From the IMG/VR virus record IMGVR_UViG_3300044681_000086, positions 1-23,373 of that record: a stretch of DNA of 23,373 nucleotides. The stretch is one strand, 5' to 3'. Below, piece by piece: positions 3,669-21,967 of the stretch. Numbering within the stretch: the first letter of the stretch is position 1; every line of letters begins with the position of its first letter. This stretch comes from a virus. Below the pieces are notes generated by a model. It was not told where the DNA came from. It did not search any database and saw only the letters and a list, made by a program, of their open reading frames with translations. Position numbers and translations under genes: made by a program.

Positions 3669-5137
3669 GCTGAATCTCCAAATGAGGATAATCTATCCCT
3701 CTCGGCTTCAAGTACGTCTTGTCGTGTCTGAGCGTCCAATCCTAATGTTACCTGTTGTCCCAAATTGGCTTCGGTATTTCCAAGAGGAATCGTACCAACA
3801 AATGATGATGGATTCTGTCCAGTAGTCCTACCAATAGCAGGAGGGTTTACATTCAGAGATTGTGTGCTTATAAGTCCATCCGCCATTGCTCTGAGTTGTA
3901 GATTTTGTCTATTGTCCGAGTCTCTCATTGCACCACGCAAATCTTGAGTTGAGGGTTCACCATCATGGAAAACTCCACCATACCCTTCTGCATCTTCAAG
4001 ATTCTTTTTCAGTTTGTCTCCAGCATCAATTGTTACAGTCTTAATACCATAAGGCCCGCCTAACAAACTTGTCATAACCAACGGAGAAGGAATAGTTGGA
4101 ATTGTCGGGGGTGTTGGGAAAGGAGGAGGTGTAAAGTCCGGAATAGTAGGAGCAGCGCCACCAAGTGCGGCCGCAGAGATTGCAGTCCCAGCGGTCAATG
4201 ATGCCTTTGATACCATTGCTGATATAGACCCACCCAATACGTTACCGTAGAATGCAGCACCAGAAGCAAAGGGAACCGGCCCAGCAGGGCCCATATAAGT
4301 CTTACCAACATAGTCAACAAGTTGTCCGCCAAAAGAACCCGTCACACCAATAACAGAACAATGTATGCCTGTCATGTTGACAACCTTGGATGAAGCTGCA
4401 ACCTCATTCTTACCAGATAACATCACCGTTCCATCAGAAGATAGAGATAGTGTTCCCTCTGTGGACAACGACATACCACCTTTGGCGTTATATTGTGTAG
4501 ACCCAAGAACAGTTTCGATTCTACTTGCACCAACAACGTTTGTCTGGTTACCCTTAATGGTTCCTTCACGATTACCTGAAACTAGATCACGATAGTTCTT
4601 AGCGACCTTTTCGTTCTTATGTCCCTTGGTTCTAATGTTGTAGTTACCACCAACATCAACATTATAATTACCTTCGATGAACATGTCAACATTACCTTTG
4701 TAGGCCATCTTGGTATCACCTTCTACGATGATACGCATGTCACCCCCAACGGTTTCTAGTTTATTTGCAACCGAACTGATATAGATCGTTCCATCAGGAC
4801 GAATCTCAATACCCGCACCCGTCCTATGTTTGATCAGAATCCTTTCACCACCAGCGGTATCGTCATATTCAATTACGTGACCAGAATACGTTTCCTTTAC
4901 TTGGTTGTAAGGATACTGTGAAGGTTGTGTGTCTTTCAGTTCAAGATCAATTTCTGAAAATGTGGCAGTCACATTTAGATCATTGATTTTATCTCCACGA
5001 GCAGCCTTATTGATTGAGGATTCCCCCCAATACTGTTTGCGAGGAAATTCACCAGAGGGGTCTTGAAATCCATAAAGGGGGACTTGCTGTTGACCTTCTT
5101 CTTCACTTCTCTCTGTGATTATATTTTCTTTTGCCAT
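3665..5137 (-). CDS. Baseplate central spike protein, gp5 C-terminal beta-helix type
   Basis: The 490-aa product corresponds to the needle part of T4 gp5 and the related VgrG/gpV spikes, without the OB-fold and lysozyme. Residues about 85-270 hold short beta repeats with regular V/I-x-G-N/D spacing, for example GDTKMAYKGNVDMFIEGNYN followed by VDVGGNYNIRTKG, which would wind into the triple-stranded beta-helix. The start is polar (residues 1-60). After residue 270 comes a small-residue region with AGPVPFASGAAFYG, and a proline-rich stretch near residues 335-350 (PPPFPTPPTIPTIPSP) that may be a linker. The last 100 residues are polar. It overlaps the amidase gene by 1 nt at 5137. No metal-binding tip motif such as HxH was obvious at the C-terminus. 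A separate PAAR-type tip protein might therefore exist elsewhere; that is inference. Confidence 0.75.
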   Translation of the reverse strand: MAKENIITERSEEEGQQQVPLYGFQDPSGEFPRKQYWGESSINKAARGDKINDLNVTATFSEIDLELKDTQPSQYPYNQVKETYSGHVIEYDDTAGGERILIKHRTGAGIEIRPDGTIYISSVANKLETVGGDMRIIVEGDTKMAYKGNVDMFIEGNYNVDVGGNYNIRTKGHKNEKVAKNYRDLVSGNREGTIKGNQTNVVGASRIETVLGSTQYNAKGGMSLSTEGTLSLSSDGTVMLSGKNEVAASSKVVNMTGIHCSVIGVTGSFGGQLVDYVGKTYMGPAGPVPFASGAAFYGNVLGGSISAMVSKASLTAGTAISAAALGGAAPTIPDFTPPPFPTPPTIPTIPSPLVMTSLLGGPYGIKTVTIDAGDKLKKNLEDAEGYGGVFHDGEPSTQDLRGAMRDSDNRQNLQLRAMADGLISTQSLNVNPPAIGRTTGQNPSSFVGTIPLGNTEANLGQQVTLGLDAQTRQDVLEAERDRLSSFGDSA

Positions 5138-7038
5138 TATCTGTCAAACCTATTTTGTACATATTTCTTTACGTCAAACTGTGGGTCATCAGAACCGTTC
5201 TCAATATCACTATGACCGATAACATTCAAGCCAGGGAATCTTCTATAGAAGTTTATCAGGATAGATTCCAAGGTGTCAAATTGGGCTCTTGTATAAGATT
5301 CGATACCCTTATAGAAATCCGGATTTTCTGTACCAGCGGCCGCATTAATCCCACCAACCATAACAACATCGATAGAATAGTTTGCATAATCAACAGGAGT
5401 AACCTCCGAAACAACGTTCGAAGGAATACCTCTTTCTAATGTTCCGTCCCTACGAATTACATAGTGGAACTGCATACCGTTATATCCACGTTCAGTCAAT
5501 CTTTCATGAATATCTGCCGCAGTCAAGAACTGGTTGTTATATGAATTTGTTGAGTGAATAACAAGATGGGTGATAGAACGTTTCGTTACCATAACCTCTT
5601 GTGCAAGTTCCTCATAGGAATCACATGTTGAGAACTTCGGAATACCGCCCGGAGCTTGGTCTGTGTAGTAATTAGACCCGTAGTTCTTCAGGTTCTTATT
5701 CTGATTAAAGAAGTCGTTCTGTGAGACAAAGAGGTTACCCTGAATTGTGGTATCGAAGATAGCAACGTTGTCTTCGGTTGCAACAAAAATTTCATCAAAG
5801 TCTGCAAGAATTGCAGGATCAACTCCACGTAAAACGGCAAGATTGTTGATGTTATCTTGCAGTTGCTTGGTATTAGAATAAGATTCTACCTCAGCGATAA
5901 TAGGAAGCATATCGGGGTGAATGTTCTTGTTCTTGCTGACAATTGTTTTAACAGCATTAGCTACGTCTTTTGGTTGTCCAGTATTAAGTTGATCCATTAC
6001 CGTACCAACTTCTGCCTTAGACAATACCGCACCACCAGTAATTTGTGTGATCGATTTACCCAAAGTTGAGTTATAGTCCTCTACCTTGTTTTGTAGAGAA
6101 CCACCCTTACTTCCAGAAGATGTCAAGGCCTGTGCAACCGCCACCGCAGTGATAAGAGGTGATGCAATATCAAGAACGGTTTCGATTGTATCACCAATAC
6201 CATCAGCTACCTTATTAATACCCTTCTCGATATCAGTAATACTTTTACCAACTTCTTTAAACTTATCTTTAATTCCGGTATCTTGTGCAACAGTATCCAG
6301 AACAGTTCCTAAAGGATCATCAATTGCAGATGCAACTTTAAATACATTTGATGTTACAGCATCCATAGCTGTCCCAATTTTATCAAATTGGTTTCCTAAT
6401 TCCTTTAGACTGTTTATGCCACCAAGACCTTTAAATTCACCACCCGCAGCTTCGATTGATGCTGTGAGACCATCAACCTTTTCCGTAATTGCATTGCCTG
6501 CATTTTCTAACGCATCACCTGTCGCAGCACCAACGTTGATGTTACTTGCCAAATCAGCCAATGCACCCAGAGCGGTAATTAATCTCATGAGTCCAGCAAT
6601 AGTGTCACCAACACCACCACCAATACTATTGATGTTCGCTGATAATAAACTTAAGTCTGTACTATCAACCCAGAACTCTTGTGAGAAAACATTCCATGAC
6701 GCAGAATCAATATTAGCATTTGCAGAATCATCCAACTCTCCACCAATTGTGGCGGTAACTGTGTTTTGAATGTCTGTCGCACTTTGTCTCAAACCAAAGT
6801 CATTAGACTGTATTAATGCCTGACCAGTTGTGTTCGCTTCACCCGCATTATCCGTTCCTGTTAATGACGTAATGCCTGATATGGATTGACCCACTTGTGT
6901 GAAGTTCGTTGTGTTGTTTGCAATATTACGATCAGACACCAACCCAACAGCATTAGTAATGGTTGCGGAGTTCTGAATATTATTTCTATTATTGTCTAGA
7001 CGTAATAACTCGTTTACGCTAGTTTTAGTAACAGCCAT
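5137..7038 (-). CDS. Baseplate hub-associated protein with C-terminal N-acetylmuramoyl-L-alanine amidase domain
   Basis: 633 aa. The last ~145 residues form an amidase_2/PGRP/AmpD-type domain that cuts the bond between MurNAc and L-Ala. It has THLVIHSTNS (H495), FHYVIRRDGTLERG (H525, the usual core strand and hairpin) and VIGHSDIENGSDDPQF (H609 and D618). The expected zinc ligands are H495, H609 and D618, as in the AmpD H/H/D set. The preceding ~480 residues are low in aromatics and rich in A, I, G, N, T. They include long amphipathic helices and hydrophobic runs such as TIAGLMRLITALGALADLAS (near residue 145) and VLDIASPLITAVAVAQALTS (near residue 290), the kind of sequence seen in tape-measure or membrane-penetrating tail proteins. 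A strong SD (GGAGG) precedes the ATG. It lies between the gp5 N-terminal-type gene and the spike gene, so it probably supplies the wall-cutting activity of the tail tip. No signal peptide is seen, which fits delivery by the virion rather than export. Confidence 0.82.
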   Translation of the reverse strand: MAVTKTSVNELLRLDNNRNNIQNSATITNAVGLVSDRNIANNTTNFTQVGQSISGITSLTGTDNAGEANTTGQALIQSNDFGLRQSATDIQNTVTATIGGELDDSANANIDSASWNVFSQEFWVDSTDLSLLSANINSIGGGVGDTIAGLMRLITALGALADLASNINVGAATGDALENAGNAITEKVDGLTASIEAAGGEFKGLGGINSLKELGNQFDKIGTAMDAVTSNVFKVASAIDDPLGTVLDTVAQDTGIKDKFKEVGKSITDIEKGINKVADGIGDTIETVLDIASPLITAVAVAQALTSSGSKGGSLQNKVEDYNSTLGKSITQITGGAVLSKAEVGTVMDQLNTGQPKDVANAVKTIVSKNKNIHPDMLPIIAEVESYSNTKQLQDNINNLAVLRGVDPAILADFDEIFVATEDNVAIFDTTIQGNLFVSQNDFFNQNKNLKNYGSNYYTDQAPGGIPKFSTCDSYEELAQEVMVTKRSITHLVIHSTNSYNNQFLTAADIHERLTERGYNGMQFHYVIRRDGTLERGIPSNVVSEVTPVDYANYSIDVVMVGGINAAAGTENPDFYKGIESYTRAQFDTLESILINFYRRFPGLNVIGHSDIENGSDDPQFDVKKYVQNRFDR

Positions 7039-11488: not shown

Positions 11489-11968
11489 ATGGCGTATTCT
11501 GGAAGATACCCCGTAAAAAACAAGACTAAGTATGTTGGTGACCCCAACAGCGTAGTATATAGATCACTGTGGGAAAAACACGCTTTCAAATGGTGTGACA
11601 ACAGTTCAGACGTAAAACGCTGGGCCAGTGAAGAGGTTGTTGTTACATACTTATACGAGGCAGACAAAAGATATCATCGATATTTCGTTGATCTATGGAT
11701 AGAATATAAAGACGGTAATGTGGTCATGGTTGAGATAAAACCAGACCGTGAGACCAGACCACCTACCGGATCACGAAGGACTAAACGTATGTTGGAAGAG
11801 TCTCTCACATATGTCAAGAACCAGAACAAATGGCAAGCCGCAAACAAATACGCAAAGGAACGGGGATGGAAGTTTGAGATATGGACTGAGAAACGATTGT
11901 CCGCTATGGGTATTCTACCTAAGTCAATAAAACCATTAAAACCCTTCCCCAAAAAAATTAAGAAATGA
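11489..11968 (+). CDS. gp4: Head completion nuclease-fold protein gp4 (gp50/gp4)
   Basis: 159 aa (T4 gp4 is about 150 aa). In T4 this protein completes the DNA-filled head before the tail joins. The N-terminus MAYSGRYPVKNKTKYVGDP with VVYRSLWEKHAFKWCD is the family signature. The core has the PD-(D/E)XK/TnsA-like nuclease pattern: WASEEVVV (E48/E49), YFVDLWIEYKDG (D68) and VEIKP (E82, K84). All expected active-site residues are therefore present, which would allow nuclease activity, possibly trimming of packaged DNA ends. The tail is very basic (KPLKPFPKKIKK). It is the first plus-strand late gene. Its TGA overlaps the ATG of the sulfotransferase. Confidence 0.92.
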   Translation: MAYSGRYPVKNKTKYVGDPNSVVYRSLWEKHAFKWCDNSSDVKRWASEEVVVTYLYEADKRYHRYFVDLWIEYKDGNVVMVEIKPDRETRPPTGSRRTKRMLEESLTYVKNQNKWQAANKYAKERGWKFEIWTEKRLSAMGILPKSIKPLKPFPKKIKK

Positions 11969-12549
11969 ATAAGAAAATATTCTTCATAGGATTCAACAAG
12001 ACTGCAACCACATCCTTGCACCATCTTGTGGGAGCATCCGGATATGTTAGTGTTCACTGTCTATATCGTGTGAATGATACATCATGGTTTATAGCCAGAA
12101 AGATGAATGAAAACATAAACGAAGGTAGACCAATACTTCACGATATGGAAAATGCACATGCATATAGTGATATGTTGTATTCAAAACAAAGATCATTTAT
12201 AGAAGGCAACAAGTACTACAAAAAACTCCACGAAGAATATCCAGACTCGTACTTCATTTTACAAACAAGAAATCTTGATGACTGGTTAAGAAGTAGATTA
12301 TATCATAAAAACGGCGCATTTGTCAAGAGGTGTATGAAGTTTAACAGTTGTACTCAAGATGAATTGTTAGCAAAGTGGACATTCGAAAAGAAATCTCGTG
12401 AAAAGGCCATGAAATTCTATTTCAAAGACAACCCTAACTTCTTAGTGTTTGACATCGATAAAGACCCTATAGACAAACTCATCAATCACGTATCCCCTGA
12501 CTTTGAATTAGATAAAAGACGGTGGAGAAGATTGAATGAAACTGTATAA
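11965..12549 (+). CDS. Sulfotransferase family protein
   Basis: 194 aa. Sulfotransferases move a sulfuryl group from PAPS to a hydroxyl or amine of a sugar, lipid, small molecule or protein. The N-terminal strand-loop-helix KIFFIGFNKTATTSLHHLV (residues 4-22) is the 5'-phosphosulfate-binding P-loop (consensus GxxKTGTTSL). Residues 95-113 (SYFILQTRNLDDWLRSRLYH) match the 3'-phosphate-binding strand and helix, with R102, W107 and S110 in the expected places. Residues 160-180 (LVFDIDKDPIDKLINHVS) fit the strand before the C-terminal helix. No signal peptide or membrane segment is seen, so it should be soluble and cytoplasmic. It has no obvious SD; its ATG overlaps the gp4 stop (ATGA), so it is translated by coupling in the late message. 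It is richer in A/T and Lys than its neighbours, which suggests recent acquisition. The acceptor is unknown. Confidence 0.85.
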   Translation: MNKKIFFIGFNKTATTSLHHLVGASGYVSVHCLYRVNDTSWFIARKMNENINEGRPILHDMENAHAYSDMLYSKQRSFIEGNKYYKKLHEEYPDSYFILQTRNLDDWLRSRLYHKNGAFVKRCMKFNSCTQDELLAKWTFEKKSREKAMKFYFKDNPNFLVFDIDKDPIDKLINHVSPDFELDKRRWRRLNETV

Positions 12550-12580: not shown

Positions 12581-13183
12581 TTGGCACGAGTTGCAAACGC
12601 ACAGATTATCAATCGATTGGAACTACAGGCGTTCCGTGCTGGCATCACGCCTCGCACAAAGGAATCCCGTGAGTGGTTCATGAAGAAAGCATCGAACCTG
12701 AGAAGCATCAATCGTACCAACTTGATGCAAGAGGCGCCTCTTAAAAAGAAATCGAATAACGTGACTGGAAGAATGTATATGTTCTTCTATGACCCCAAAC
12801 ACAAAGACACCCTACCGTACTACGATGTCTTCCCTTTGGTGTTTGTTATTGGGCCTGCAAAGGACGGTTTCCTTGGATTAAATCTTCACTATCTACCTCC
12901 CCTGTTGAGAGCAAAGTTTCTGGATGCACTCATGGATATTCAGGGAAGAAATCTTACAGACAACACTAAATTAGATTTGTCCTACGAACTCTTGAAGAAA
13001 ACCTCCAAGTTAAAGTATTACAAACCCTGTCTGAAACACTATCTGAACAAACACGTTCAGAGTAAGTTCGCTGAGGTTCCTGCTCCTGAGTGGGAAATTG
13101 CAACTTTCTTACCAACCGCTGATTGGAGAAAGAGAAACAGACAGAAGGTATATAACGATTCAAGGGTTATGATAAATGGCTAG
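12581..13183 (+). CDS. Conserved T4-like phage virion/assembly protein, TTG start
   Basis: 200 aa. I chose the TTG at 12581 because AGAGG lies 8 nt before it and a late promoter lies just upstream. The next Met in frame is residue 34, past a conserved-looking MARVANAQ start. The N-terminal third is basic. The middle (about residues 62-118) is more hydrophobic: RMYMFFYDPKHKDTLPYYDV, then FPLVFVIGPAKDGFLGLNLH, then YLPPLLRAKFLDALM. A basic part follows with LKYYKPCLKHYLNKHVQSKF, and EWEIATFLPTADW near the end. I recall similar proteins in the head-completion/tail region of T4-like marine phages but cannot give a secure T4 name; the DNA end protector gp2 is a possibility by position only. It overlaps the next gene by 8 nt. 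Confidence 0.72.
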   Translation: MARVANAQIINRLELQAFRAGITPRTKESREWFMKKASNLRSINRTNLMQEAPLKKKSNNVTGRMYMFFYDPKHKDTLPYYDVFPLVFVIGPAKDGFLGLNLHYLPPLLRAKFLDALMDIQGRNLTDNTKLDLSYELLKKTSKLKYYKPCLKHYLNKHVQSKFAEVPAPEWEIATFLPTADWRKRNRQKVYNDSRVMING

Positions 13184-13880
13184 TATAGAACAATTAAAAT
13201 CAGCTGCAAGCAAATCCCAAGGGTTTGCGATGGCGAACTTGTTTCAGGTTATTTTACCTCCGTTGGCTGGTGTGTCTTCCGAACAGATAAATGTTATTTG
13301 TAAAATGACAGAATTGCCGGGCAGACAGATTATGTCTATGGAACAGCAACTTGGTACGGTAATGAGAAAGGTTGCTTCTGGTTATGCCACGACTGACATT
13401 AACATGTCGTTCTACGTAATGAATGACCATGCGATTACAAAGTATTTTGATGCTTGGCAGAAATTGGCCCATGATCAAGATACCTACCGAGTTAACTACT
13501 ATATCGATTACGTAAAAGACGTAGAGATCAAACAACTGCAAAAGGGAACGGCCTTCAGTTTGTTTAAAAAACAATTAGGGTTCCTTGGTGGATTGCCTTC
13601 TTCTATTACTGGAAGGTTAGGTAACATTGGTGGGATCGACTTAGGTCAAGGCGAGATAGATATTAAGATTGGGTCGGATGAACATGTAATTCGACACGTA
13701 AAACTCTTGGAAGCATATCCAACAACAGTAAACGCCATATCGTTGGGTAATGATCAAGAGGGTATAAGCGAATTGTCGGTTCAACTGTCGTATCGTGATT
13801 GGAAATCACTAGAAGCAGAAGGGCCGAATAATAACCTTGGGGATGCACTTGTTGGTGGACTTCTCAAGAAGATTTTTTAA
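13176..13880 (+). CDS. Tail-tube-fold protein, probably baseplate tube initiator gp54-like
   Basis: 234 aa. The tail-tube fold is shared by T4 gp19 (163 aa), gp54 (320 aa) and gp48. Visible: MANLFQVILPPLAG (residues 18-31), then CKMTELPGRQIMSMEQQLGT (residues 41-60), the tube-protein loop in which the neutral PGR is typical. After these come INMSFYVMNDHAITKYFDAW and a YYIDYVKDVEIKQL strand. The end has LLEAYPTTVNAISLG and ISELSVQLSYRDWKS, also tube hallmarks. Residues 125-165 form a Gly-rich insertion missing from the short tube protein. The length and the place next to hub/tape-measure genes favour gp54 over the main gp19 tube protein, which normally follows the sheath gene gp18 (not in this window). 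An SD-like AAGGG precedes the ATG within the end of the previous gene. Confidence 0.72.
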   Translation: MASIEQLKSAASKSQGFAMANLFQVILPPLAGVSSEQINVICKMTELPGRQIMSMEQQLGTVMRKVASGYATTDINMSFYVMNDHAITKYFDAWQKLAHDQDTYRVNYYIDYVKDVEIKQLQKGTAFSLFKKQLGFLGGLPSSITGRLGNIGGIDLGQGEIDIKIGSDEHVIRHVKLLEAYPTTVNAISLGNDQEGISELSVQLSYRDWKSLEAEGPNNNLGDALVGGLLKKIF

Positions 13881-13901: not shown

Positions 13902-14609
13902 ATGGCATTACCAAAGTTAAATACAAACCCGATTTATGAGTGTACGATTCCCTCAACGGGAGATAGAGTTTCGTATCGTCCATACTTGGTCAAGGAAGAA
14001 AAAGTCTTGATGATGGCGATGGAGACACAGGATCAGAAACAGGCACTACGTGCAATTGTAGACACCATTGGTGCTTGTGTTCAGGGTGATGGTTTTGATG
14101 CAAAGTCTCTTACGACTTTTGATATTGAATATCTGTTTACTCAGATTAGATCAAAGTCTGTGGGTGAGAACTCAACCATCGTTATGAAGTGTTCTGAATG
14201 TGAAGCTTCAAACGAATACACACTGGACATTTCTACTGTTAAGGTAGAGAAACCGGATGAAAACAATGTTATCAAATTAAGCGACACCGTTAGTGTCGAA
14301 ATGCGATATCCTATTTACAAAAACATCTCTAACGTGAACTTTAATGCGGGCGAGATGGAAGTTGGGTTTGCAATGATTGGTAGTTGTATCAGTGCCGTTC
14401 TCACAGACGATGAACGTATTGATATGAGCGAAGTGTCTAAGGCTGAGATTCAAGAGTTCTTAGAGTCTATGACACAGGATCAGTTCACTCGACTTGCGAA
14501 GTATCTGGAATCATTGCCTGCACTTAGACACAATGCACAGTTCACATGTATTAAGTGTGGTGCAGAAAACGAACGTATGTTAAGAGGTATGCAAGATTTT
14601 TTATCATAA
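13902..14609 (+). CDS. gp26: gp26-type baseplate hub/tail assembly chaperone with two CxxC pairs
   Basis: 235 aa (T4 gp26 is 208 aa). It belongs to the T4 gp26/gp51-type baseplate family. The N-terminus TIPSTGDRVSYRPYLVKEEK is typical. The middle has AIVDTIGACVQG and LTTFDIEYLFTQIRSKSVGE. Two cysteine pairs, C97-C100 (MKCSECEA) and C216-C219 (FTCIKCGAENE), could form one zinc ribbon that pins the two ends together. The SD is TAGGAG 6 nt before the ATG. The gene ends with a canonical slippery heptamer three codons from the stop (see the frameshift feature), so a longer 298-aa product is expected at low frequency. The position directly before the tape measure gene matches the tail assembly chaperone of lambda-type phages (gpG), so a chaperone role is likely. 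Confidence 0.82.
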   Translation: MALPKLNTNPIYECTIPSTGDRVSYRPYLVKEEKVLMMAMETQDQKQALRAIVDTIGACVQGDGFDAKSLTTFDIEYLFTQIRSKSVGENSTIVMKCSECEASNEYTLDISTVKVEKPDENNVIKLSDTVSVEMRYPIYKNISNVNFNAGEMEVGFAMIGSCISAVLTDDERIDMSEVSKAEIQEFLESMTQDQFTRLAKYLESLPALRHNAQFTCIKCGAENERMLRGMQDFLS

Positions 14610-14649
14610 ACCTTTCTCATGATAACTTGGTTAATTATTTTAAAACCAA
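14582..14649 (+). promoter_or_regulatory. Probable programmed -1 ribosomal frameshift site
   Basis: The heptamer T TTT TTA lies at 14597-14603 in the correct phase of the gp26-like gene (codons 233-234: Phe, Leu). An SD-like AAGAGG (14582-14587) sits 9 nt upstream, as in the dnaX frameshift signal. Just downstream is a perfect 7-bp inverted repeat, TTATCAT (14601-14607) with ATGATAA (14619-14625), and then TTGGTT/AACCAA (14627-14632/14644-14649). A -1 slip leads into an open frame that continues to 14797. Without a slip, translation ends two codons later, at 14607-14609. Confidence 0.78.
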
Positions 14650-14797
14650 TTTTTCGTTGATGCAACATCATCATTATAGTTTGACAGAATTAGAAATGAT
14701 GATGCCGTGGGAAAGGGAGATATATGTTACATTATTGGTTGAGTGGATTAAGGAAGAGAATGAGCGTAGAAAACAAGAACAGTCTAGAATGAGTTAA
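14603..14797 (+). CDS. Frameshift-encoded extension of the tail assembly chaperone (gpT-like)
   Basis: This frame is -1 relative to the gp26-like gene. From the slip site it codes for 64 residues, giving a 298-aa fusion of gp26-like residues 1-234 plus this part. It has a short polar start, then QHHHYSLTELEMMMPWEREI with YVTLLVEWIKEENERRKQEQ, a pattern I recognise from T4-like phages and typical of alpha-helical tail chaperone C-termini. The first ATG in the frame (14660) would start a 45-aa product but has no SD in front of it; the other ATG at 14619 is in another frame. It ends 5 nt before the tape measure ATG. The alternative is an independent small gene started at 14660, which I consider less likely because of the exact slippery site. 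Confidence 0.72.
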   Translation: MINLSHDNLVNYFKTNFSLMQHHHYSLTELEMMMPWEREIYVTLLVEWIKEENERRKQEQSRMS

Positions 14798-14802
14798 AAG
14801 AC

Positions 14803-17187
14803 ATGGCAGAAGCACCATCATCAGTAGGTCTTATTAACATTATTAACCTCATGCGTGAGGAAAATAATGTTCGTAATGAATCTATCAAACAAAGTCAAGA
14901 GGGGACAGAAAAGAATACTTCTGACCTCAATAAGACTATGCGTGAGATTCTTGAAGAGATCAAGCAGGATAGACTTCAGAACGAAGAAGACCGTAGAGAA
15001 TCCAAAAAACAGGCTAAAGAAAAGGGGAAAGATTCTGTATCCCCAATGAAGGCTTTTGAGATAGATTGGCCTGCTTTCTCTTGGACTGCTATGATTGGTG
15101 GTATCATTGCTGCATTCGCTGGATTTGTCCAAGGACTTATTAACGGTTGGGTTGGAGCAATAAAAGATGTTATGAAAGCTCTTGGAAGATCGATACGCAC
15201 TCTCTTCAGAGGTATGCGAATAGCGCTACAAGATGCATTCCGAGTAATACTAAACACATTCAGAGCCCTTGGTCGTGGCTTAGAAAAAATGTTTGGTGTT
15301 AGGGGAAGACTTGCTAACATGTTTAATAGGGTTCTGAATTCAAGAATCATGAAACCTATTATGGACGGGGTGCGGGGAGTTCAAAGATTCTTCAGGGGTG
15401 TTAGTTTATTCTTCACCAATTTACGTGTTGCATTCAATTCTGGATTTAATGGTCTTACTAAACTACAAGTAAGTTTACGTCAATTAAATGGACGTTTTAA
15501 AGGGTGGAACGCATTTGACAAAATTGCGAGAGGAATAGGTAAAGCAGCAAGAGTTATTAAATCTGCTGTAGATGGAGTTTCATTCTTCTTTTTTGCAGTT
15601 AGATACTATGCGACTATTGGATTCGATAAACTCCGGTCTATTGGAAGAATGTTGCTTCAGGGAACACGAGTTCTCCGTGGACTAGATGCTGGAGTTGATT
15701 TGGGCCGTGTCGGTTCTGGTATAGGAAGGGCATTTCGTGTCGTTAAATCGGTTTTCGGTACAGCATTTAGTGCCGTAAAAGCAATATTAAGTCCTATCAC
15801 AAGCGTAATATCGAATATCTTCGGGAAAGCGGGTGTGTTAGGAAAATTCTTTGGTTCAATCTTTAGAATCTTCCGTGTCTTTGGTAGGTTCATTGCATGG
15901 CCTATTACAGTTATCATGGGCATCTATGATGGTATCATGGGGTTCATTGATGGTTGGCAATCACGTGAAGGTGAAGGGATATTCAATCAAATTATTGGTG
16001 GTATCTCCGGCGCTCTTGGTGGTATCTTATCAGGACTAGTCGGTGTACCTCTTGACCTTCTGAAAGACTTGGTTAGTTGGATTGCCAGTAAACTTGGATT
16101 TGAAAACTTTTCTGAGTGGTTAGACTCATTCAGCTTTGCTGATATGATATCGGACATGTTCAATGCCCTTGGTCAGATGTGGATTGATATTAAGGATTGG
16201 GTTGTCGGTCTGTTCGATGCAGAAGACCCCGTTGGTTATATCATTGATGGACTCACAGGACTTCTTGATAAGGTCACCGGATTTTTTAGTGACATGTGGG
16301 AAGGTTTAACCAGTTTCCTAAGTCGTGCATGGAGAGGAAGACCTACATGGTTGGGTGGTGATGGAACATTTAGTTTGTCTGGTGGTTCTTCGTCTTCTCC
16401 TGCATCTAGAACAAGAAATGATGCTATTGGTGATGACACTCCTCCCCCAAGAGATACGAGTTATAGAACTCAAACCCGAACCAGAACGAGATCGGCTGGA
16501 AGTGGTTCAAGTGGTTCAGCTGCAGCTGATAATTTAAATTTTGATATAACTCCTACAGGAGATAGGGACGCTGACGTAGAAAAAATCCTATCAACTATAA
16601 GACTAAGAGAGTCGGGTGGAGATTATACTGTTGGTCAAAATGCTGGGGCCTCATCAGCTTCTGGTGCTTATCAATTTCTTGATGGTACATGGCAGACTCT
16701 TACTAGAAACATGGGTATTGGTCAACAGTATACTAGGGCAAAGTTCGCTCCTCCAGAAATTCAAGATGAAGTCGCTCGTAGATATGTACAGGACATCTTG
16801 CGTAGGAGTGGCGGTGACATTAGAGCGGTTCCGAATGAATGGTATACCGGCAACATAGAAGGTAGAATGACCGAAAGACAGTTAGCTGCAAACAACGGTC
16901 TTACTTCTGCACAGTATACTAATCGTTGGTTAAATGATTATAACGGCGGAGTTGGTGCGCCTAGTTCTAGTTCTAGAACAAATGCAGGAACTATGCTTGC
17001 ACAGTTTGGTAATGGTAATGCTGGGAATGGTGGAAACGCATTTGCATCGTTTAACTTCGGAGGTAACAGCAATACTAGTGTTTCGAATACAACAAACACT
17101 CAATCGACTATTGCGCCTGTGTTTGATGTTGATGCAGCGTTTGGGCCGTTTGCAACATCCGCTAACGCACTGTTTGGTGCAGCATAA
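14803..17187 (+). CDS. Tail tape measure protein with C-terminal lytic transglycosylase domain
   Basis: 794 aa, longer than T4 gp29 (590 aa), the protein whose length fixes tail length. Residues 1-75 are highly charged and coiled-coil-like. Residues about 85-120 hold a hydrophobic segment (WTAMIGGIIAAFAGFVQGLI). Residues 120-420 are basic/aromatic amphipathic repeats (FRVVKSVFGTAFSAVKAIL and similar), with more hydrophobic stretches at about 370-430, typical for the part that reaches the membrane. Residues 525-580 are a Ser/Gly/Thr/Arg linker (RTQTRTRTRS). Residues about 595-715 look like a transglycosylase of the Rpf/SLT type: LRESGGDY with the expected catalytic E603, GASSASGAYQFLDGTW, then ARRYVQDILRRSGGD. 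The last 70 residues are Gly/Asn/Ser-rich. The start is 5 nt after the frameshift-extension stop with only a weak SD (AAAAGA), so coupled translation is probable. Confidence 0.85.
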   Translation: MAEAPSSVGLINIINLMREENNVRNESIKQSQEGTEKNTSDLNKTMREILEEIKQDRLQNEEDRRESKKQAKEKGKDSVSPMKAFEIDWPAFSWTAMIGGIIAAFAGFVQGLINGWVGAIKDVMKALGRSIRTLFRGMRIALQDAFRVILNTFRALGRGLEKMFGVRGRLANMFNRVLNSRIMKPIMDGVRGVQRFFRGVSLFFTNLRVAFNSGFNGLTKLQVSLRQLNGRFKGWNAFDKIARGIGKAARVIKSAVDGVSFFFFAVRYYATIGFDKLRSIGRMLLQGTRVLRGLDAGVDLGRVGSGIGRAFRVVKSVFGTAFSAVKAILSPITSVISNIFGKAGVLGKFFGSIFRIFRVFGRFIAWPITVIMGIYDGIMGFIDGWQSREGEGIFNQIIGGISGALGGILSGLVGVPLDLLKDLVSWIASKLGFENFSEWLDSFSFADMISDMFNALGQMWIDIKDWVVGLFDAEDPVGYIIDGLTGLLDKVTGFFSDMWEGLTSFLSRAWRGRPTWLGGDGTFSLSGGSSSSPASRTRNDAIGDDTPPPRDTSYRTQTRTRTRSAGSGSSGSAAADNLNFDITPTGDRDADVEKILSTIRLRESGGDYTVGQNAGASSASGAYQFLDGTWQTLTRNMGIGQQYTRAKFAPPEIQDEVARRYVQDILRRSGGDIRAVPNEWYTGNIEGRMTERQLAANNGLTSAQYTNRWLNDYNGGVGAPSSSSRTNAGTMLAQFGNGNAGNGGNAFASFNFGGNSNTSVSNTTNTQSTIAPVFDVDAAFGPFATSANALFGAA

Positions 17188-21529: not shown

Positions 21530-21967
21530 CTAGTTGGTGAACTTCATTTGGAAAGGGAAACACTTGAGGAACAGTTCCTTCTCAAGACGATACGCTTCCT
21601 TCTCCCAAGGCTGGTTCTCGTATTCGAACCCACCAGCATTGCGACCCTTCCAGACCCAACCGTTACTACCTTCAGCGTCCAACTGGCCACGAATGAACTG
21701 GCGAGCATGAACCATCTCGTGAGCAAGAGTCTGCATCATTTCAAGGAACTTTAACTTACGACCATCATGGTCTTTACGGGAGATGTGAATCTCAGCGTAC
21801 TCACGGTCACCCACGCAGGTTCCGTGAGCTTCGATGTCTTTGTTGGTGAAGGTAATTTCAATCCAAGGATTACGGAGACGGGCCATACCCAACTCCTTGA
21901 CCAGATTGTCCATGAAGACTTCAACAACTTCTTTGTTGGGAACCCGACTTTCGAACATATAGATCAT
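21530..21967 (-). CDS. SprT-like zinc metallopeptidase
   Basis: 145 aa. LEMMQTLAHEMVHARQFIRG contains the HExxH zinc/catalytic motif (H83, E84, H87). The likely third ligand is a glutamate in PWEKEAYRLEKELF (E122 or E124), as expected in SprT/Spartan-like small proteases where the second helix carries it. Upstream, WIEITFTNKDIEAHGTCVGD and EIHISRKDHDGR form the sheet edge typical of the fold. SprT-like enzymes cleave DNA-bound or misfolded proteins; a phage copy could remove DNA-protein crosslinks or host factors. It is the first gene after early promoter copy 1, with GAGAGG as ribosome binding site, so it should be expressed at once after infection. Confidence 0.83.
   Translation of the reverse strand: MIYMFESRVPNKEVVEVFMDNLVKELGMARLRNPWIEITFTNKDIEAHGTCVGDREYAEIHISRKDHDGRKLKFLEMMQTLAHEMVHARQFIRGQLDAEGSNGWVWKGRNAGGFEYENQPWEKEAYRLEKELFLKCFPFQMKFTN

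Follow-up and report, generated by a model that had tools for sequence, protein, structure and literature searches.

A predicted -1 frameshift joins gp26-type and gp51-type tail assembly chaperone sequences in a T4-like phage and its relatives

The window analyzed here is the whole 23,373-nt fragment of IMG/VR record IMGVR_UViG_3300044681_000086, and all positions, including those of an earlier note on this DNA, are window positions. Annotation with PHROG and Pfam revealed that the fragment, which belongs to a marine T4-like phage, carries T4-like tail and replication genes, among them genes for baseplate wedge, hub, tube cap, head closure, DNA end protector, tail tube, gp26-type, tape measure and gp32-type single-strand binding proteins. 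A sulfotransferase-like ORF lies between the head-closure and DNA end protector genes (11965-12549, + strand; Pfam Sulfotransfer_4, E=2.4e-9; N-terminal GFNKTATTSL; no PHROG match), and a gene among the baseplate genes (5137-7038, - strand) encodes a C-terminal amidase domain (Amidase_2, E=3e-8, residues 486-619). A small SprT-like protein with a HEMVH metalloprotease motif and a sub-threshold Pfam match is encoded at 21530-21967 (- strand). The features of the chaperone locus and its two neighbors are the following:

13176-13880, + strand: tail tube protein (gp19-type), the upstream neighbor (PHROG_45 tail tube, E=1.6e-26)
13902-14609, + strand: gp26-type tail assembly chaperone, short form (G / TAC-N), 235 aa
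14582-14587, + strand: internal SD-like AAGAGG, ending 9 nt before the slip site
14597-14603, + strand: slippery heptamer T_TTT_TTA, in the 0-frame phase X_XXY_YYZ
14603-14797, + strand: -1 frame (T / TAC-C), gp51-type C-terminal tail, 64 aa plus stop
14607-14609, + strand: 0-frame stop TAA, with a single sense codon (TCA) between heptamer and stop
14617-14660, + strand: downstream stem-loop, 14617-14632 paired with 14644-14660
14803-17187, + strand: tape measure protein (PHROG tail length tape measure, best E=1.9e-13)

The chaperone locus is thus placed between the tail tube gene and the tape measure gene, as in the G/GT type. The last codons of the gp26-type ORF are GAT (14595), TTT (14598), TTA (14601), TCA and TAA, so that T_TTT_TTA forms a canonical tandem-slip heptamer in the correct phase. 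Open from 14555, the -1 frame reaches its stop at 14795-14797, and a slip at the heptamer would join codons 1-234 to a further 64 codons (14603-14794) in a 298-aa product. The predicted peptide across the -1 junction is GMQDFLIINLSHDNLVNYFK, and the short form would end in GMQDFLS. The earlier note had claimed an in-phase T TTT TTA at 14597-14603 near the gp26-like stop, an AAGAGG 9 nt upstream of it, a -1 frame open to 14797, a 298-aa fusion beside the 235-aa product, and a position of the gp26-type gene directly before the tape measure gene. Coordinates, codons, ORF reading and codon counts (234 + 64) agree with the first four of these claims, and the PHROG identification of 14803-17187 confirms the last.

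Homology searches indicated that the two reading frames encode two parts of one protein family. The short form matched Pfam T4_baseplate (PF12322; E=5.5e-59, residues 10-234) and PHROG_150 'baseplate hub' (E=1e-63), and its AlphaFold2 model (pLDDT 87) resembled models of the gp26 family. The -1-frame peptide matched PHROG_634 'baseplate hub assembly catalyst' (E=3.6e-28, positions 59-119 of 121) as well as positions 235-277 of PHROG_150, the part of that family lying beyond the short form, and hhalign matched the -1-frame alignment to the gp51 tail of T4 and Aeromonas phage Aes012 with a probability of 95.7 (E=9e-9). Three helices were predicted for this tail (pLDDT 84). The earlier note had described it as a helical segment; the homology refines this by identifying it with the C-terminal part of T4 gp51. 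T4 gp26 covers PF12322 only, while T4 gp51 covers PF12322 and then the same tail, so that gp26 corresponds to the short form and gp51 to the long form, encoded by two genes; Aes012 likewise has one gene for the short form (gp26) and another for a long form that is intact (gp51). On this domain coverage, the window locus corresponds to T4 gp26 and gp51 within one gene. Among the listed Foldseek matches of the short form to solved structures, the HK97 tail assembly chaperone 2ob9 had the highest probability (0.66), with a target TM of 0.41-0.48 and an E-value of 1.0, a weak match that makes a fold resemblance to the HK97 chaperone suggestive only. The short-form profile found no match among the sequences of solved structures, and the -1-frame profile gave chance-level matches only.

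We assembled a panel of 262 loci, 261 of them complete, consisting of the window, IMG/VR contigs and 22 annotated frameshift-type phages. The annotated phages include Kyanoviridae cyanophages, pelagiphages, Vibrio phage nt-1 and its relatives, and phages of Rhizobium, Sinorhizobium, Stenotrophomonas and Pseudomonas; searching with the nt-1, RL2RES and SD25 proteins yielded just one or two loci apiece. Dereplication at <85% nucleotide identity left 177 loci. Alignment of homologous loci, which the earlier note had proposed as a check, showed T_TTT_TTN in phase in 259 of the 261 complete loci and a -1 frame conserved as protein. The same heptamer was found in the last ten codons of none of 350 other ORFs (at least 120 codons long, from the 177 loci). 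The 0-frame stop follows the heptamer at a distance of 0 or 3 nt in 240 of the 259 loci; it lies 24 nt past the heptamer in the pelagiphage Mosig (L082) and in 15 other panel loci. The only loci without TTTTTTN are two near-identical Ackermannviridae vibriophage loci (L089 and L109; Vibrio phage vB_VpaS_SD25). Both read CAC GTT TTT CGC TAA, with a -1 frame that is still open and has tail-like sequence, and their GTTTTT is perhaps a slip site of the GTTTTT type.

A run of six or seven T could also give rise to a fusion through transcriptional slippage, in which a base is inserted or deleted and an edited mRNA is translated into a nearly identical product. However, 171 of the 259 loci have just six T followed by C, which is short for polymerase slippage. 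Such slippage would need no codon phase, and yet the phase is kept in 259 of 259 loci despite stops at 0, 3, 6 or 24 nt. This phase conservation, together with selection on the SD-like element and stem described below, which fits ribosomes, makes transcriptional slippage very unlikely.

Codon choice and the pattern of variability across the slip site bear on whether the poly-T end could simply reflect a constraint on the short protein (D/S-F-F/L), with the -1 frame open by chance. Phe-Phe or Phe-Leu is indeed conserved at the end of the short protein; however, the adjacent Phe codons differ from each other, the first being TTT in 177 of 177 dereplicated loci and the second TTC in 132 of 162, and TTT accounts for 73% of Phe codons in the rest of the gene. 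Under codon usage, this pattern has a log10 P of about -63 if the loci are assumed to be independent; this and the other cross-locus significance values given here are inflated, because the loci are related. Before the heptamer, variability was highest in the wobble position of the 0 frame (0.62, vs 0.49 and 0.34), and directly after it in that of the -1 frame (0.61, vs 0.47 and 0.34), a signature that persists further downstream. At the protein level the tail is strongly conserved: PWER does not vary across a 20-sequence alignment, the PxE core lies exactly 34 codons past the slip in 167 of 177 loci, and the -1 frame is under strong purifying selection downstream of the heptamer. Codon choice and the switch in coding signature lead us to reject a chance open frame or a pure protein constraint, to which we assign a negligible probability.

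Two further elements of the locus show signs of selection. The 21 nt upstream of the heptamer bind the anti-SD sequence better than synonymous shuffles do (-6.75 vs -5.03 kcal/mol, p=3e-19, 177 loci), and the Glu codon at the SD-like site is GAG rather than GAA in a ratio of 83:20, compared with 1164:2797 elsewhere. The element, located 8-9 nt 5' of the heptamer, is therefore retained beyond synonymous expectation, and the internal AAGAGG of the window is likely to be a frameshift stimulator. Downstream of the heptamer, RNA across the whole panel was more stable than synonymous shuffles at +12..+63 (-8.42 vs -4.75), with no clear excess beyond that interval. In the cyanophage clade (119 loci) the stem begins about 6 nt past the heptamer. 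The clade that contains the window (32 loci) showed a fold excess at +18..+63 (-5.67 vs -2.93, p=8e-5) and none over synonymous shuffles at +9..+48 (p=0.79), so that a cyanophage-like stem right behind the slip site is not supported for this clade. The downstream inverted repeats pointed out in the earlier note are real, pairing 14617-14632 with 14644-14660 around an inner stem of TTGGTT (14627-14632) and AACCAA (14644-14649), and the covariation score of this stem in the window clade exceeded that of all column shuffles (0 of 500), a kind of count that relatedness inflates. The window stem starts 13 nt past the heptamer, where the usual spacing is 5-9 nt; this spacing, the ordinary folding at +9..+48 and the weak fold resemblance to HK97 weigh against the frameshift reading. 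Judged from these comparisons, downstream RNA structure is significant and clade-dependent.

Public annotation treats the -1 frame differently: none of the 22 frameshift-type phage records joins the frames, the second frame being given as a small CDS of its own in 20 and left unannotated in 2. Such a gene would be translated from a ribosome binding site of its own or by re-initiation past the gp26 stop. In keeping with this possibility, a -1-frame ATG is present within -13..+23 nt of the stop in 82 of the 177 loci, mostly from one cyanophage clade, and in three vibriophage loci stop and start overlap as TAATG; in some cyanophages and vibriophages, a near-stop ATG might allow re-initiation as an additional route. 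However, 30 of the 32 loci of the window clade are without such an ATG. Past the slip site of the window, no -1-frame ATG, GTG or TTG has a plausible SD, as had been claimed from the sequence (the best, -2.7 kcal/mol at 14735, is too far downstream), and the sole -1-frame start before the slip site is a GTG at 14555. We therefore reject an independent -1-frame start for the window. Across the dereplicated loci, an SD-backed -1-frame start within 25 codons was found in only 6 of 177, and in 133 of 177 a stop closes the -1 frame no more than 10 codons upstream, while those annotated starts that were measured are scattered from 5 to 95 nt past the heptamer. A separate gene would also leave unexplained the fixed phase of the heptamer, the SD-like element and the coding signal that continues up to the heptamer, and the tail is fused in T4 gp51. 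We consider a separate gene improbable.

The phase of the heptamer, the switch in coding frame, the unusable starts, the SD-like element, the stem and the T4 gp51 fusion together favor a -1 programmed frameshift that would yield a short G-type and a long GT-type chaperone, a reading to which we assign a probability of roughly 0.93. The G/GT-type interpretation proposed in the earlier note is thus supported by heptamer conservation, the coding switch, the stimulators and the gp51 fusion. The analysis establishes the sequence elements, how well they are conserved, the switch in coding frame and the kinship with T4 gp26/gp51, whereas the occurrence and rate of the frameshift and the function of each form are inferred; the following sequence of events can be postulated. 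Most ribosomes would terminate at 14607 and produce the 235-aa short form. A minority would pause on T_TTT_TTA, aided by the internal SD and the downstream stem; the tRNAs on TTT and TTA would re-pair one base back, and the slipped ribosome would read the -1 frame to 14797, producing the 298-aa long form. If the two forms act like lambda gpG and gpGT, their common domain may coat the tape measure protein, and the additional tail of the long form may recruit tail tube subunits, with both chaperone forms absent from the finished tail.

The arrangement downstream raises the possibility of a further role for the frameshift. The tape measure ATG lies 5 nt past the -1-frame stop and has a weak SD. 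Among 164 placeable loci, the next gene overlaps the -1-frame stop or begins no more than 30 nt from it in 160, and its SD is often weak, although in some lineages this next gene is a small ORF rather than the tape measure gene. It is conceivable, though we regard it as rather unlikely, that the frameshift also sets the amount of tape measure protein: with its start at the end of the -1 frame and a weak SD, the tape measure gene would be translated mostly by frameshifted ribosomes, and how often they slip would determine how much long chaperone is made per tape measure protein. Near the C terminus of the tape measure protein itself, residues 596-662 weakly resemble a transglycosylase (Pfam E=0.0015).

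In their 2022 abstract, Vladimirov et al. reportedly state that several T4-like groups retain frameshifting, T4 itself using genes 26 and 51. An earlier review described the G-T frameshift as conserved in long-tailed phages 'except T4' (Atkins et al. 2016, PMC5009743). Passages in later papers credit Vladimirov, Gautam and Davidson (2022, Virology 566:9-15) with identifying the T4-like tail assembly chaperones (PMC10885494, PMC12846349) and with the poly-T slippery sequences in T4-like chaperone genes (PMC12846349), and one notes that some T4-like phages have a short gene and a long fusion gene with no frameshift (PMC10885494). According to these passages, a frameshifted chaperone in T4-like phages is a mechanism already reported in 2022. 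The window shares with the gp26/gp51 family described there the protein family, a site before the tape measure gene and a poly-T slip, and belongs to its frameshifting type, from which it differs in nothing essential; T4 itself has the separate genes 26 and 51. The likeness to lambda gpG/gpGT consists of a -1 frameshift late in the chaperone gene with the same two-form logic (PMC5009743), and of a second frame that lies just before the tape measure gene and touches it, H overlapping T in lambda. The lambda slippery site is GGGAAAG, in contrast to the TTTTTTN of the window type, and the resemblance to lambda is one of arrangement, that of fold being weak and to HK97 2ob9. A conserved chaperone -1 frameshift with a T-rich slip motif has also been described in the myovirus Pseudomonas phage Adele (Vandenendeviridae/Andersonviridae; PMC12846349). 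The Adele-type motif, GTTTTT (PMC12846349), matches that of the two Ackermannviridae vibriophage loci, and is unlike the TTTTTTN of the other loci.

The present analysis adds to this work locus-wide evidence, a downstream stem supported by covariation, and a possible link between the frameshift and the tape measure gene. It also suggests that public records misannotate the long form, giving a 'baseplate hub assembly catalyst' as a gene of its own with arbitrary starts, or omit it, and that the long form should be annotated as a joined CDS. The sampled T4-like phages, which are mostly marine, are predicted to keep the frameshift, and the separate genes 26 and 51 of T4 may represent an alternative solution for the same need.
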